IMG/VR virus record: IMGVR_UViG_3300030202_001144
Location: 1 to 62,896 of that record
Direction: 5' to 3' (one strand)
From: a virus
DNA: 62,896 nt
A program made the translations under genes and the position numbers. Below, in pieces: positions 50,500 to 55,250 of the stretch. How positions within the stretch are numbered: position 1 is the first letter of the stretch; each line of letters opens with the position of its first letter. The notes under the pieces were generated by a model that was not told where the DNA came from, did not search any database, and worked only from the letters and a program-made list of their open reading frames with translations.

Positions 50500-50531
50500 A
50501 CAGACTTAATAATAACAAGTAACGATAATAT
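50500..50531 (+). promoter_or_regulatory. Phage promoter copy 4, leaderless (ACAGACTT-N16-GATAATAT)
   Basis: ACAGACTT at 50500-50507, spacer 16, GATAATAT at 50524-50531. With GATAAT as the -10 hexamer, six bases (ATTAAT) separate it from the ATG at 50536, so the expected start point coincides with the A of ATG: a leaderless mRNA. Confidence 0.68.
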
Positions 50532-50535
50532 TAAT

Positions 50536-50944: not shown

Positions 50945-50993
50945 GGAGCATACTACGGTACTAAGGTGTGGGTTCGACTCCCACTATGCTCCC
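50945..50993 (+). ncRNA. Mini tRNA-like element: acceptor stem plus T-arm only
   Basis: GGAGCAT (50945-50951) pairs perfectly with ATGCTCC (50986-50992). Between them is a canonical T-arm, GTGGG-TTCGACT-CCCAC, and only 16 nt (ACTACGGTACTAAGGT) where the D and anticodon arms should be. The result is close to the minimal minihelix known to be recognised by RNase P and the tRNA 3' end enzymes. It cannot decode. A gene starts 13 nt downstream, so the element may define that mRNA's 5' end. Confidence 0.7.
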
Positions 50994-51006
50994 TAAAATT
51001 ATAATT

Positions 51007-51366
51007 ATGAATTGGAAACAAAAACAACTATGGCTTGAAGACTGCTTTGTAAGAGCTATGCTTCATGAACATAATATTGTAGAAACTACTACAAAAAGAC
51101 AATGGCGTAATGGTACACGTCAGTTTAAGTTACCAACAGGTCAAACGCTAGCAACCTATAAATCAGGTATGGTTCGTAGATGTGATAGTAGTGACAGAGT
51201 TTATCAGATTAATCCTCAATATAAAAGAAAAGTTAGATGGATGTATCTTGATGGTATTGATTTAGTCACAAAAGAATACACAACTACGTCACGAGTAAAG
51301 ATCTGGTCAGGTTTAGCTAGACTAAACTATTTATTACAGTATTATCTTAAAAACTATAAAAAATGA
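51007..51366 (+). CDS. Small basic protein, unknown function
   Basis: A 119-residue basic protein (MNWKQKQLWLEDCFVRAMLH) with a beta-rich middle (RQFKLPTGQTLATYKSGMVR) and a C-terminal helix. The start at 51007 is preferred over an in-frame ATG at 50968 that lies inside the T-arm of the tRNA-like element. Possible nucleic-acid binding from charge; no family recognised. Confidence 0.68.
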   Translation: MNWKQKQLWLEDCFVRAMLHEHNIVETTTKRQWRNGTRQFKLPTGQTLATYKSGMVRRCDSSDRVYQINPQYKRKVRWMYLDGIDLVTKEYTTTSRVKIWSGLARLNYLLQYYLKNYKK

Positions 51367-51578
51367 ATGGAGACTTATATTTATTTGTACTAGACTTTGA
51401 AGATGGTAGAGTGTATAAATACTTATACCCTGAAGTTGTACAAAACGAGGATGGTAAGGTTGTGGAAAATGACCACGAATCTTATTTAGTCCAGTTAGGA
51501 CATAAAGCAACTAACTGTGAATGGATGATAACTAAATACGAAGAAATAATAGATGAAGCATACACAAAATTTAATTAG
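51363..51578 (+). CDS. Small acidic protein, unknown function
   Basis: A 71-residue acidic protein (MNGDLYLFVLDFEDGRVYKY, then GHKATNCEWMITKYEEIIDE). It starts 4 bp before the upstream stop, so translation is coupled. Resembles phage small proteins that bind partner proteins; nothing diagnostic is seen. Confidence 0.65.
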   Translation: MNGDLYLFVLDFEDGRVYKYLYPEVVQNEDGKVVENDHESYLVQLGHKATNCEWMITKYEEIIDEAYTKFN

Positions 51579-51750
51579 TAAACTATTGATGTTTGCATTA
51601 GTTTACTTTGTAGGTATTTTTACTGCTATGTATTACTGCTACAAGCAACCACTTGATGAGCATATTCTAATACATAATAGAGAAATTAATTTTCCTGATC
51701 AAGAATGTTATACTAGGTCAGACATACACTTAATAATATATGGTGAATAA
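51553..51750 (+). CDS. Small single-pass membrane protein, 65 aa
   Basis: Starts inside the 3' end of the preceding gene in another frame (26-bp overlap). The first 30 residues hold a hydrophobic segment (LISKLLMFALVYFVGIFTAM) after a short basic N-terminus; the rest is polar and Cys-containing (FPDQECYTRSDIHL). Likely an inner-membrane peptide of the infected cell. Confidence 0.58.
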   Translation: MKHTQNLISKLLMFALVYFVGIFTAMYYCYKQPLDEHILIHNREINFPDQECYTRSDIHLIIYGE

Positions 51751-51757
51751 TATCTAC

Positions 51758-51789
51758 ACGAACTTAATAAAATTTACTTCAGATAATAT
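51758..51789 (+). promoter_or_regulatory. Phage promoter copy 5 (ACGAACTT-N16-GATAATAT)
   Basis: ACGAACTT at 51758-51765, spacer 16, GATAATAT at 51782-51789, ATG at 51810 (20-nt leader). The upstream box has one change from ACGGACTT. Confidence 0.7.
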
Positions 51790-51809
51790 TAATGTAAAAA
51801 ATAATTATT

Positions 51810-51998
51810 ATGTGGTGTAAATGTGGTAACAAACTGCCGCAAGTCAGAGTTGACTACGGCTATAAAAAATGTGTGCAATGTTCTGATACAGAGCAAGTTA
51901 GCTATGTACCAATCATTACTCACAAAACTGGTAACACAATACAAATTGTTAGTCAAGCAGTATCTGCCAGTGTACATAAAGCTTGGCGACGTAAATAA
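51810..51998 (+). CDS. Small zinc-ribbon-like protein, 62 aa
   Basis: Two cysteine pairs, MWCKCGNK (C3, C5) and KKCVQCSD (C21, C24), suggest a small Zn ribbon, followed by a helix-rich basic tail (SASVHKAWRRK). A plus-strand overlapping frame begins at 51823, but this frame has the promoter spacing and Cys pattern. May bind nucleic acid or a host polymerase. Confidence 0.6.
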   Translation: MWCKCGNKLPQVRVDYGYKKCVQCSDTEQVSYVPIITHKTGNTIQIVSQAVSASVHKAWRRK

Positions 51999-52005
51999 AA
52001 TAACT

Positions 52006-52197
52006 ATGGCAAAAATGAAAGAATTAGATCGAGTTGCACAAGTTGTAGCCGAGAATATGTTAGAACAATTATATGAGAATATACATTGGTCTATGCCCGC
52101 AGATGAAAATCTTGAAGGCGATGAATACATGCAAATGCATAACTATATAATGTCAAGAGCATTACATTATATGTTTAAACTTACAAAAAAGAAATAA
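52006..52197 (+). CDS. Small helical protein, 63 aa
   Basis: ATG at 52006 is 7 bp after the preceding stop. The product (MAKMKELDRVAQVVAENMLE, then YMQMHNYIMSRALHYMFKL) is predicted helical. An upstream in-frame extension to 51823 would overlap the zinc-ribbon gene almost entirely and is rejected. Function unknown. Confidence 0.6.
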   Translation: MAKMKELDRVAQVVAENMLEQLYENIHWSMPADENLEGDEYMQMHNYIMSRALHYMFKLTKKK

Positions 52198-52199
52198 CT

Positions 52200-52325
52200 A
52201 TGGAATGGTATGATTATATGAATCCACACGACCAACCAGAATATCAGTGTTGTGTATGTGAAAAACCATTACAAAATGATGAAAGATATTGCAGTCATGA
52301 CTGCTTTAAAGCCGATATGCGATAG
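52200..52325 (+). CDS. Small zinc-finger-like protein, 41 aa
   Basis: ATG at 52200, TAG at 52323-52325. The product has CCVCEKPL and YCSHDCF (C-x2-C...C-x3-C), the spacing of a small treble-clef-like zinc finger. Tight spacing to the upstream gene supports translation. A second small Zn protein in the same transcript as 51810. Confidence 0.58.
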   Translation: MEWYDYMNPHDQPEYQCCVCEKPLQNDERYCSHDCFKADMR

Positions 52326-52678
52326 TGTTTTTCATAGTTATATAGTAGCATATTGGCAAACAACCGGAAGCGCACCGCTAACACCTACAATTTAACATAG
52401 GTAAGTTATGAGCGACTCGAGGTTGGTTGACTAGGTCAGGTTGTGGTAGATAAAGCTAGGGTGAAATAGACCAATGATGTGGTTCTACTGGCTACGACGG
52501 TATGAGGTTCGAGTCCTCACTAGTCACTAATAGGGTAAAACACGAAGGACGGTTAGCTTAACGTCAAAAACATTATGTGGTGTCTACGGAGTAATTACCG
52601 AGTGACGTACGGAAGTGTATTATGTGAGACGGCGAACCCCTGAAAGCGTGGGTATGTGCACGATACCACCCTTGACAT
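52326..52678 (+). ncRNA. ORF-free structured region upstream of the initiator-like tRNA
   Basis: About 350 nt with GC clearly above the local average (42% and 53% in two counted 60-nt blocks). It includes a 100-nt tRNA-like element (52428-52527) and other pairings: CACCTA/TAGGT, CAACC/GGTTG, AGCG/CGCT before it, and GGTAT/ATACC in the last 60 nt. Direct repeat ATTATGTG occurs twice after it. No ORF is supported. It may be a precursor transcript containing several processed RNAs. Confidence 0.5.
52428..52527 (+). ncRNA. Aberrant tRNA-like element with intact acceptor and T-arm
   Basis: TGACTAG (52428-52434) pairs perfectly with CTAGTCA (52520-52526) and a canonical T-arm TGAGG-TTCGAGT-CCTCA lies next to it. 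The interior (about 70 nt) does not fold into normal D and anticodon arms; a hairpin near TAGACCA/TGGTtCTA with a 6-nt loop is the best local stem. It could be a decayed tRNA, a tRNA with an unusual insert, or a processing element. No CCA is encoded. Confidence 0.6.
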
Positions 52679-52750
52679 AGCGGGATAGAGCAGTGGTAGC
52701 TCGCAAGGCTCATAACCTTGAGGTCGTAGGTTCGACTCCTACTCCCGCAA
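52679..52750 (+). tRNA. tRNA-Met(CAT) with initiator features
   Basis: Clear cloverleaf: acceptor xGCGGGA/TCCCGCx, D-stem GAGC/GCTC, anticodon arm CAAGG-CTCATAA-CCTTG, variable AGGTC, T-arm GTAGG-TTCGACT-CCTAC. Two bacterial initiator hallmarks are present: an unpaired 1-72 position (A opposite A) and an A11-U24 pair. The third hallmark (three G-C pairs in the anticodon stem) is only partly met. No CCA is encoded. The next gene starts 20 nt downstream. Confidence 0.85.
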
Positions 52751-52770
52751 CTAATTTTAAATCTAAAACT

Positions 52771-53304
52771 ATGGCAACAAGAAATATGATTATGGTTGTA
52801 CCAGAAGAGTACGGCTTCAATGAACATGGTCTAATGACTGCGGTTCCTAACAGTGTAGAAGAAAAAAGCTACCTTAATTTATACATGCATCATGATGGTT
52901 ATCCTGAATGGCAAGGTGTACAACTAGCAAATTGGAGATTAGCTAATCCAACTATGGATATAGCTCGTGCTTCAGCTAAACTAGCACGTGATATGTACTA
53001 TGACAGTAGCTATTTATATCCATCAGTAAATAGTATTGATCACCAATATACTTACATAGTATGGGTCGGTAAAGAAAATAATAAAATATCTTGCTTTGAT
53101 AGATATAATAGTAAACATGTATTTACTATGACACCTAATGAAATTAAAACTAAGTATGCAGGCGATATGGATTATACTGATTTTGCTAAAGGTGAAACTA
53201 GATGTCGCCGTAATAATACAATTTCAAAAGAAGAATTAGCTACATATAATAAAGTTAGAGCTAATGCACAGAATATAATAGATATATTAACCCATTCGGA
53301 CTAA
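52771..53304 (+). CDS. Protein of unknown function downstream of tRNA
   Basis: A 177-residue protein (MATRNMIMVVPEEYGFNEHG) with Trp/Tyr-rich middle (HHDGYPEWQGVQLANWRLAN) and a beta region with HQYTYIVWVGKENNKISCFD. Translation is taken from 52771; an in-frame ATG at 52693 lies within the tRNA and is rejected. The leader between tRNA and start is nearly identical to that at 54178-54197. No family recognised. Confidence 0.68.
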   Translation: MATRNMIMVVPEEYGFNEHGLMTAVPNSVEEKSYLNLYMHHDGYPEWQGVQLANWRLANPTMDIARASAKLARDMYYDSSYLYPSVNSIDHQYTYIVWVGKENNKISCFDRYNSKHVFTMTPNEIKTKYAGDMDYTDFAKGETRCRRNNTISKEELATYNKVRANAQNIIDILTHSD

Positions 53305-53327
53305 AATAAATTAACTCACGATAATAT
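53296..53327 (+). promoter_or_regulatory. Phage promoter copy 6 (TCGGACTA-N16-GATAATAT)
   Basis: Upstream box TCGGACTA at 53296-53303 (overlapping the preceding stop), spacer 16, GATAATAT at 53320-53327, ATG at 53355. The upstream box has two outer changes but retains CGGACT. Confidence 0.65.
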
Positions 53328-53354
53328 AAATGTATAACAAATAAAAATTAGATT

Positions 53355-53570
53355 ATGAGAACTATTAAATTCAAAGGTAAAGACACAATGTTTATTGACG
53401 GTGTTGAGTACAAAGGTTACACAGTTGGTAATCTGCCAAATTCATTTGGTTTTAAAGAAAAATATTTAGGCACAGATGAAGAGGGTAATGACCAATACAA
53501 ATATGGTAAATCAAAGTGGTTTAAATTCAGAAGTTTAACTTGGTTAGAAAAACCTCCAACACCTTGGTAA
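53355..53570 (+). CDS. Small basic protein, unknown function
   Basis: A 71-residue beta-rich protein (MRTIKFKGKDTMFIDGVEYK, then FKEKYLGTDEEGNDQYKYGK). Ends just before the next ATG (2-bp gap). Served by promoter copy 6. Confidence 0.65.
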   Translation: MRTIKFKGKDTMFIDGVEYKGYTVGNLPNSFGFKEKYLGTDEEGNDQYKYGKSKWFKFRSLTWLEKPPTPW

Positions 53571-53571
53571 T

Positions 53572-53832
53572 ATGGATTCAAAGAAAAAATATGAACAAAT
53601 GGTAGAAGACGGAGATATAGTTCCTACATATGCTAGAGAATTATATGAGTTATCTAAACTACCTCCGCCAAAGCCAAGGCCTTTAGGTACAATGATAGTA
53701 CCTGATGAAGCTAATGCTAGAGAATTATGGGAACAATACTTTAAAGCTAATAGTCCTGGTATATATGGATGGGAAGAGTTTGAAATAGCTTACTCATTCA
53801 TGATCTGGTGCTATGGAAAACGAAAAAGATGA
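53572..53832 (+). CDS. Small acidic/aromatic protein, unknown function
   Basis: An 86-residue protein. The C-terminal half (DEANARELWEQYFKANSPGI, then WEEFEIAYSFMIWCYGKRKR) is helical and aromatic with a short basic tail. It is in an apparent three-gene unit with its neighbours (overlap of 4 bp with the next start). Confidence 0.62.
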   Translation: MDSKKKYEQMVEDGDIVPTYARELYELSKLPPPKPRPLGTMIVPDEANARELWEQYFKANSPGIYGWEEFEIAYSFMIWCYGKRKR

Positions 53833-54026
53833 GAAAATTTAGAAGATACAAAGAAAACTTAAGACGAGTAGGTAATGATATATGGTCTTACTCTACTCAT
53901 GTCGCAACAATAGAATATCCTGGTAAACTAATACAACATGGTTGGTGGAGTGTAACAACACAGAAACATATTAACTATGTAGCAAGAGAATTATGTTTAA
54001 CTATTGAAAAGGATTATACAGATTAA
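53829..54026 (+). CDS. Small basic protein, unknown function
   Basis: A 65-residue product from ATG 53829 (MRKFRRYKENLRRVGNDIWS), then YSTHVATIEYPGKLIQHGWW and a C-terminal helix (NYVARELCLTIEKDYTD). I recognise the NDIWSYSTHVA...WWSVTTxKHINYVA pattern from short phage proteins of unknown function. The stop is 5 bp before a tRNA-like element. Confidence 0.64.
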   Translation: MRKFRRYKENLRRVGNDIWSYSTHVATIEYPGKLIQHGWWSVTTQKHINYVARELCLTIEKDYTD

Positions 54027-54031
54027 TTAAC

Positions 54032-54177
54032 GGGCGCGATAAGGTATTGACCGAGACGTGGTAACAGTAAGCTAAGAACAGTCACAACTCACCAGGGAAT
54101 CCCATGGTTGACCGTACGGCTGAGACGCTGAATCCAACCGAGTCATGGTAACGCAGGTTCGAGTCCTGCCGCGTCCA
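54032..54177 (+). ncRNA. Elongated tRNA-like element with G-U acceptor pair
   Basis: GGGCGCG (54032-54038) pairs with CGCGTCC (54070-54076 offset to 54170-54176) with a G-U at the third pair, followed by discriminator A. The T-arm GCAGG-TTCGAGT-CCTGC is canonical. Between them are about 114 nt where a normal tRNA has about 45; GGTTG/CAACC, CCA/TGG-GGG/CCC and a CCGTACGG palindrome give local structure, but no standard anticodon arm is found. G3-U70 is the identity element of alanyl tRNAs and tmRNA. A gene begins 20 nt downstream, exactly as after the initiator-like tRNA. Confidence 0.62.
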
Positions 54178-54662: not shown

Positions 54663-54723
54663 TGCAGAACAAATATGCATTATAGTATTTGTAATAGCTT
54701 ATACTATAATAGTAAATAGTTGA
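54640..54723 (+). CDS. Nested small membrane peptide, 27 aa (possible)
   Basis: ATG at 54640 lies inside the 3' end of the acidic protein gene; TGA at 54721-54723 is three bases before the sigma-factor ATG. The peptide (MKKKIKDNAEQICIIVFVIA, then YTIIVNS) has a basic start and a hydrophobic helix. The arrangement repeats that at 50765 and 51553. Confidence 0.45.
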   Translation: MKKKIKDNAEQICIIVFVIAYTIIVNS

Positions 54724-54725
54724 TA

Positions 54726-55250
54726 ATGAAAAAAAGATTAGAAGAAATATTTAAGAATAATTATGGAGATATATATGCGGTGATCTATAATAAAACTAAG
54801 AACAAGCATTTGTCTCATGAAATAATACAAAGAACTTTCTTTAAATTATTAAATAGTAAATCTAAACCTAAAGATACTAAGCTATTGTCTTATGTTATAG
54901 TAGCCGCATGTACTACATTATTAGATCACTATCGTTCATTAAAAACTAGAAGAAAAAATCTAGATGATAATAGATATAATGAAAATATTTTAGACATAGT
55001 TGATAATAATCTTTCAATTGAAGACGTTATAATACTGAATAATAATAATAAATTAATCAAAAGATTAATTGATTCTTTATGTGATGACTTTAAAAAAGTT
55101 ATAATATATAAGTATTATAAAGAGATGACGTTTAAGCAGATAGCTGAGAAAACAAATGTAAGTATTAATACAGCTTTAGGCAGACATAGATATGCTTTAA
55201 ATAAATTAAGGAAATTATCATCCGGACTTAATATAAATAACTTTAGATAA
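54726..55250 (+). CDS. ECF-like sigma factor (sigma 1)
   Basis: A 174-residue two-domain sigma-70-family protein. The N-terminal region 2-like part reads YAVIYNKTKNKHLSHEIIQR, TFFKLLNS, followed by a low-complexity Asn/Asp linker; region 4 has a clear HTH, MTFKQIAEKTNVSINTALGR, HRYALNKLRKL. It would redirect host RNA polymerase to phage promoters. The ATG at 54726 is chosen over TTG at 54720. Promoter copy 7 lies inside its 3' end. Confidence 0.82.
   Translation: MKKRLEEIFKNNYGDIYAVIYNKTKNKHLSHEIIQRTFFKLLNSKSKPKDTKLLSYVIVAACTTLLDHYRSLKTRRKNLDDNRYNENILDIVDNNLSIEDVIILNNNNKLIKRLIDSLCDDFKKVIIYKYYKEMTFKQIAEKTNVSINTALGRHRYALNKLRKLSSGLNINNFR

Follow-up and report, generated by a model that had tools for sequence, protein, structure and literature searches.

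Three tRNA-like elements lie in the early region of the phage genome

The window analysed here is an IMG/VR virus record of 62,896 bases, taken over its whole length, and belongs to a phage that is probably marine. It carries three short elements, M, B and C, which have the acceptor stem and the T-arm of a tRNA and lack the D-arm and the anticodon arm. The late genes of the window are mostly on the minus strand, and the plus strand carries the early genes, which start at about 49.4 kb. Encoded in the early region are a Toprim/DnaB-type primase-helicase, an ERF recombinase, a DUF3799 nuclease-like protein and a sigma-factor-like protein. Since phages of Flavobacteriia (Cellulophaga phi10:1, Tenacibaculum JQ and the Flavobacterium elemo phages) are among the cultured relatives closest by primase, the host is probably a member of the Bacteroidota. 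The three elements, and a further family, D, found in relatives, lie in the early region, close to a single genuine tRNA-Met, and run in the same direction as the early genes.

An earlier note, made from the sequence of the window, had described acceptor stems with T-arms at these three sites, and all of them were found with small corrections. Element M (50945..50993, plus strand) is a minimal tRNA-like RNA with an 8-bp acceptor stem (50945-50952/50985-50992, GGAGCATA/TATGCTCC; 7 bp plus a -1:73 pair), a 15-nt linker containing GG and a 5-bp T-arm (50968-50984). The note had given M a 7-bp stem and a 16-nt gap; the stem was there, but both lengths were off by one. Element B (52428..52527, plus strand) consists of an acceptor stem (52428-52434/52520-52526), a GG linker, a variable insert and a small GACG-loop hairpin adjoining the T-arm (52503-52519). 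Element C (54032..54177, plus strand) has its acceptor stem at 54032-54038/54170-54176 with a single G:U at 3:70, and its T-arm at 54153-54169. The sequences between acceptor and T-arm, given there as about 70 nt for B and about 114 nt for C, measured 68 and 114 nt.

When the window was scanned with ARAGORN, only the tRNA-Met at 52679..52751 (plus strand, anticodon CAT) was reported. Its 1:72 position is A:A, a mismatch by which it is probably initiator-like, and its CCA is not encoded. A tRNA-Met with this anticodon is the usual tRNA of this phage group. An ATG follows 13-20 nt past M, C and the tRNA-Met, as the earlier note had seen for two elements and the real tRNA, whereas B precedes a non-coding stretch and the tRNA, not a gene.

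The stems are conserved in related phages

Relatives were collected by two scans of viral contigs with the neighbouring proteins, which gave 85 related loci with 1.34 Mb in total. These loci cover only parts of uncultured records and share ancestry, and the copies counted in them are therefore not independent. Element families were assigned by sequence rules that we defined, and single copy means single within the locus stretches examined.

The T-arm box GGTTCGANTCC occurs four times in the 62.9 kb of the window, in the three elements and the tRNA-Met, and nowhere else even when one mismatch was allowed. The expected number was 0.51, and none of 100 shuffled sequences reached four. In the related loci, 148 perfect T-arms were on the gene strand and 1 on the other strand, and one first-order Markov simulation yielded 3, so that chance T-arms were ruled out. 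The trinucleotide CTA directly followed the 3' acceptor strand, or came one base later, at 125 of the 148 gene-strand T-arms. For 79 of 133 T-arms a perfect 5' acceptor strand (with at most one G:U) was present no farther than 140 nt away, compared to 4.4 with shuffled upstream sequence. In each of 18 relatives that were searched whole, the pattern matches were confined to one strand and to about 5 kb. Nearly all non-canonical elements have a GG within nine nucleotides of the 5' acceptor strand. By analogy to tRNA structure this is probably the GG of the D-loop, which would dock in the T-loop.

The earlier note had suggested examining related phages for compensatory changes and had named unconserved stems as an argument against its idea. 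The acceptor and T-arm stems proved to be kept by such changes in the relatives, so this argument did not materialise. From the strand bias and the compensatory stem changes we conclude that all three elements form genuine RNA structures.

The same data bear on the view that the elements are left over from tRNA genes, or from phage attachment sites (attP) matching tRNA 3' ends. An attP in a tRNA gene retains the T-arm and the 3' acceptor strand, and this remainder is indeed present. However, a 5' acceptor strand is also present in the elements and covaries with its 3' partner. In addition, a genome has several distinct elements, and all of these are on the gene strand. Tested in this way, tRNA decay and attP remnants were rejected by the covariation on both sides of the stem, and we regard this origin as very improbable.

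Among the cultured flavophages, the regions of Cellulophaga phi10:1 and Tenacibaculum JQ had no T-arm of this type. Two such T-arms were found in the Flavobacterium elemoA region, one of them within an annotated tRNA-Ala.

Element C probably corresponds to the tRNA-like domain of tmRNA

The acceptor of element C, GGGCGCG/CGCGTCC followed by A, forms a 7-bp stem with G3:U70 and A73, the combination found in the alanine-charged transfer-messenger RNA (tmRNA). Family C has 38 members, which were defined by the 3' strand only; the 3:70 pair is G:U in 37 and A73 is present in all 38, while the 4:69 pair occurs in all four Watson-Crick forms. The common build is G3:U70, A73, a GG linker and a P2-like hairpin of variable size. 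A tmRNA has a D-loop without a D-stem (GGNNTTGAC or GGATTCGAC), and element C shows this feature as GGTATTGAC. The same D-loop is found in locus L012, which scores 63.9 bits with the Rfam tmRNA model; in some other family members the linker has diverged, for example to AAATGGTTAG. A P2-like helix with an insert is predicted between the D-loop and the T-arm of element C, and such a helix has covariation support in the wider class described below.

The Rfam tmRNA model matched in 23 of 30 relatives, 7 of the 30 at 60-66 bits and thus above the cut-off of 47 bits. Two scores weigh against the assignment of element C itself: it reaches 30.9 bits, below the cut-off, and tRNA-Ala genes score 32-35 bits with the same model. 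The assignment therefore rests on the D-loop GGTATTGAC, G3:U70, A73 and the relatives. Three short tmRNA matches in genomes of one bacterial family, taken as the host family, were discarded as short tmRNAs since they were tRNA-Ala genes in this range, and scores near 30-35 bits were consequently not accepted as proof. In 75 of 80 genomes of that family a full-length tmRNA of about 393-404 nt was present. Element C is 146 nt long, the full-model matches of its family in relatives are 68-164 nt, and no mRNA-like part was seen. The D-loop of family C is the same as that of Bacteroidota tmRNA, and Bacteroidota tmRNA starts such as GGGGCTG-ACTGGTTTTGAC have G3:U70, like the phage start GGGGGTG-ACCTGGTTTTGAC. 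Judged by these sequence features, family C is the tRNA-like domain of tmRNA without its mRNA part, and not the decayed tRNA that the earlier note had thought possible. A permuted two-piece tmRNA was considered for the elements of the window and dismissed, since the order of the pieces is wrong. No phage-encoded SmpB was found in 16 phages searched, so any SmpB involved would be that of the host.

Families M and B and most of D lack the alanine signature

The alanine signature is absent from M, B and most of D. The linker CTACGGTACTAARGT of family M is common to loci L002, L018 and L073, where the stems are altered (GAGCATA, GAACATG). Family B has 26 members, and the stem of its GACG-loop hairpin varies in matched pairs (TACC/GGTA, TACT/AGTA, TATC/GATA). 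The smallest elements are those of family D, with 40 nt: a 6-bp acceptor, A, the linker ATGGTTAAT, a 5-bp T-arm, A73 and CTA. At least 12 acceptor sequences occur among 22 distinct copies of D, which means that the sequence is free and the fold is kept. The covariation score was 0.869; shuffles gave 0.227, and slid pairs did not exceed 0.148. Element types are nearly always single-copy per locus, and the families have conserved inserts of their own.

Between element B and the tRNA-Met lies a conserved non-coding stretch (52533..52676, plus strand), whose ends are constant and whose middle varies. Its flanks GGGTAAAACACGAAGGACGGT and CTGAAAGCGTGGGTATGTGCACGATACCACCCTT are also present in loci L007, L021, L083 and L084, and in L073 the stretch is shortened. 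No Rfam RNA was matched in 52330-52680.

Minimal elements of acceptor and T-arm with the linker AATGGTTAAT were also seen outside the marine-type phage group, in L119 (a Porphyromonadaceae contig), which holds several in about 500 nt, and in L117 (a Bacteroidales contig). In Klebsiella phage RaK2 (L137), an unannotated tRNA-like element at about 195690-195750 has the acceptor GCGGGTG/CACCCGC and a T-arm without an ordinary tRNA body.

The positions of the elements suggest a role in trans

The CCA is not encoded in the elements, as is also the case in the Bacteroidota genomes examined, which makes cleavage by RNase P and RNase Z plausible. Such cleavage could serve in cis, as tRNA punctuation: the sites would split early polycistronic transcripts and leave a short defined leader, while the excised RNA itself would have no function. 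An ATG was indeed found 8-35 nt downstream of 108 of 172 elements, compared to 19% of random positions, the usual gap being 10-25 nt. The real tRNA, however, shows the same spacing in 27 of 33 cases, so that the spacing alone is no proof of a cis role. One and the same gene can be preceded by one element type in one phage and by another, or by the real tRNA, in a second phage, as expected for punctuation, and the free acceptor sequence of family D with its kept fold points the same way.

Against punctuation, homologs of the downstream genes mostly lack an element. It was found ahead of 6 of 44 homologs of the gene that follows M, 12 of 37 for the gene that follows the tRNA-Met and 5 of 26 for the gene that follows C. 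Only 2 of the 26 members of family B stand directly ahead of a gene, and part of family C is likewise not located before genes. The retention of G3:U70 in family C exceeds what cleavage needs. The single-copy families with their own inserts fit distinct RNA genes better than generic marks, and a promoter-like motif past some elements was also counted towards a role in trans. The earlier note's idea of mRNA processing sites, tRNA punctuation, is therefore only partly supported. We consider it rather unlikely, although it is the main rival.

A fold that is not cleaved but aids ribosome binding or 5'-end stability where a strong Shine-Dalgarno sequence is lacking would account for the typical distance of 10-25 nt to the ATG. 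The spacing is loose, though, B, like part of C, is not ahead of genes and the genes persist without the element, which makes such a leader structure improbable.

We favour RNA genes that act in trans. Two points count against this preference: 28 of 31 copies of family D are located 8-35 nt ahead of an ATG, which fits a cis role as well, and the role in trans is itself deduced from the gene arrangement. In sum, we propose, as narrowly the probable explanation, that the elements are genes for small RNAs which host RNase P and RNase Z would process to maturity and which would act in trans, probably as decoys, a function deduced from their structure and setting.

A proposed decoy model for the element RNAs

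In the proposed model, each RNA would be the upper half of a tRNA with a 12-13 bp helix of acceptor and T-stem, lacking D-stem and anticodon arm. RNase P and RNase Z of the host would excise the elements from early transcripts, the host CCA-adding enzyme would complete their 3' ends and the matured RNAs would act in trans. Since one element resembles the host tmRNA minus its message, the phage may use these RNAs as decoys, and the targets may be the host tRNA or ribosome-rescue machinery. Element C is predicted to be charged with alanine via G3:U70 and A73 and to compete with the host tmRNA for SmpB, AlaRS, EF-Tu or the stalled ribosome, by which trans-translation would be damped during infection. 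For M, B and most of D, which are without the alanine signature, elbow-binding or end-processing factors of tRNA are the more likely targets to be occupied. The clean 5' end of the downstream mRNA would then be a by-product or a secondary benefit.

Candidate domain-only tmRNAs are found in diverse viral contigs

Two pattern scans of viral contigs, with patterns that require the D-loop and the T-loop, gave at least 51 distinct domain-only candidates (at least 6 of 7 acceptor pairs), a lower bound; 47 of them have G3:U70. Many of the candidates encode CCA, indicating that other hosts are involved. In 32 candidates picked for a full-size hairpin, G3:U70 is invariant and variation occurs at the pairs 4:69 to 7:66. 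Base pairing was present in 197 of 224 cells of the P2 helix, compared to 104 after shuffling. The cultured Streptomyces phage BRock has an unannotated 78-nt copy among its tRNA genes, and the function of the tmRNA-domain RNA is therefore directly testable. Several T-arm matches in other cultured phages (JWDelta, Tunturi_3, QDWS595, Panino and cr50_1) were not counted, since the 90 nt upstream of them contained no 5' acceptor strand and they looked like the permuted kind.

A domain-only tmRNA has been reported for phage DS6A and two plastids, and the DS6A-type RNA is reported to inhibit tmRNA in E. coli, with titration of SmpB as a possible mechanism (PMC4131195, PMC11915505). The literature search, whose coverage left out most subscription papers, named the domain-only form for these three cases only. 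The earlier note knew of no described phage system of this kind. On tRNA punctuation, no phage paper was found in the literature searched, but for the RNAs themselves the statement calls for caution, given the tmRNA-domain-only RNA of DS6A (PMC4131195) and the same outline in rnaC of phage T4.

A more tentative thought, which we find possible but would not bet on, is that phages commonly encode an anticodon-less kit. It would combine a tmRNA domain of tRNA size, which would block or hijack trans-translation, with a separate, undescribed class of 40-nt minihelices with a GG elbow, family D. If so, family D with its free acceptor sequence would be among the smallest natural tRNA-like structures, either decoys or RNA-processing signals.

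The results as a whole point to a conserved class of phage RNA that ARAGORN misses and the Rfam tmRNA cut-off catches only in part. The 40-nt family D would be a natural test of the minimal tRNA portion that processing enzymes need, and the decoy model offers a testable hypothesis on how phages meet host ribosome rescue.

Comparison with known tRNA-like RNAs

The RNAs of DS6A and the plastids are tmRNAs without a coding sequence, and that of DS6A is also phage-encoded. Element C matches them in the acceptor G3:U70, A73, the D-loop and the absent mRNA part, as judged from published descriptions. The hosts differ, however, element C of the window has a large variable insert, and C is accompanied by the families M, B and D. 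The T4 rnaC (species 1 RNA) is likewise a small RNA in a tRNA cluster with a long insert, a T-arm and a 3' acceptor end, but its 5' acceptor pairs at only 5 of 7 positions, and the likeness is one of outline. In the T4 region inspected (L128, 69500-73500), rnaC has a perfect T-arm and the 3' acceptor strand, then AGG.

Mitochondrial tRNA punctuation also places tRNA-like structures, plausible substrates of RNase P and RNase Z, between co-directional genes. Unlike there, the phage elements are not at most gene boundaries, the genes persist without an element and the families are single-copy. The armless mitochondrial tRNAs are similarly short to family D (40 nt to the acceptor end), but D is without any anticodon arm, and therefore no decoding is possible.

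Bacterial Y RNAs of the YrlA type, tRNA mimics that bind Ro60, carry a tRNA-like module with such a T-arm, and the elements might be modules of this kind. A row of YrlA-like Y RNAs was seen in L116 (a Chitinophagaceae contig), next to a protein that resembles Ro60/TROVE by eye only. The order of the parts and the neighbouring gene differ from those of the elements, no Rfam YrlA match was obtained in the window and no TROVE protein in 16 phages. For this phage group the YrlA reading is thus contradicted, unless the Ro60 of the host is the target, and we give it hardly any credence.

A promoter-like motif in the early region

In the relatives, a promoter-like motif, ATACGA and GATAATWW at one fixed spacing of 9 nt, has 173 matches on the gene strand, compared to 1 on the opposite strand. 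In the window its downstream half GATAATATWAAT is repeated ahead of early genes, at 50524-50535, 51782-51793 and 53320-53331. The motif is possibly read by a putative phage sigma factor encoded at 54720-55250.

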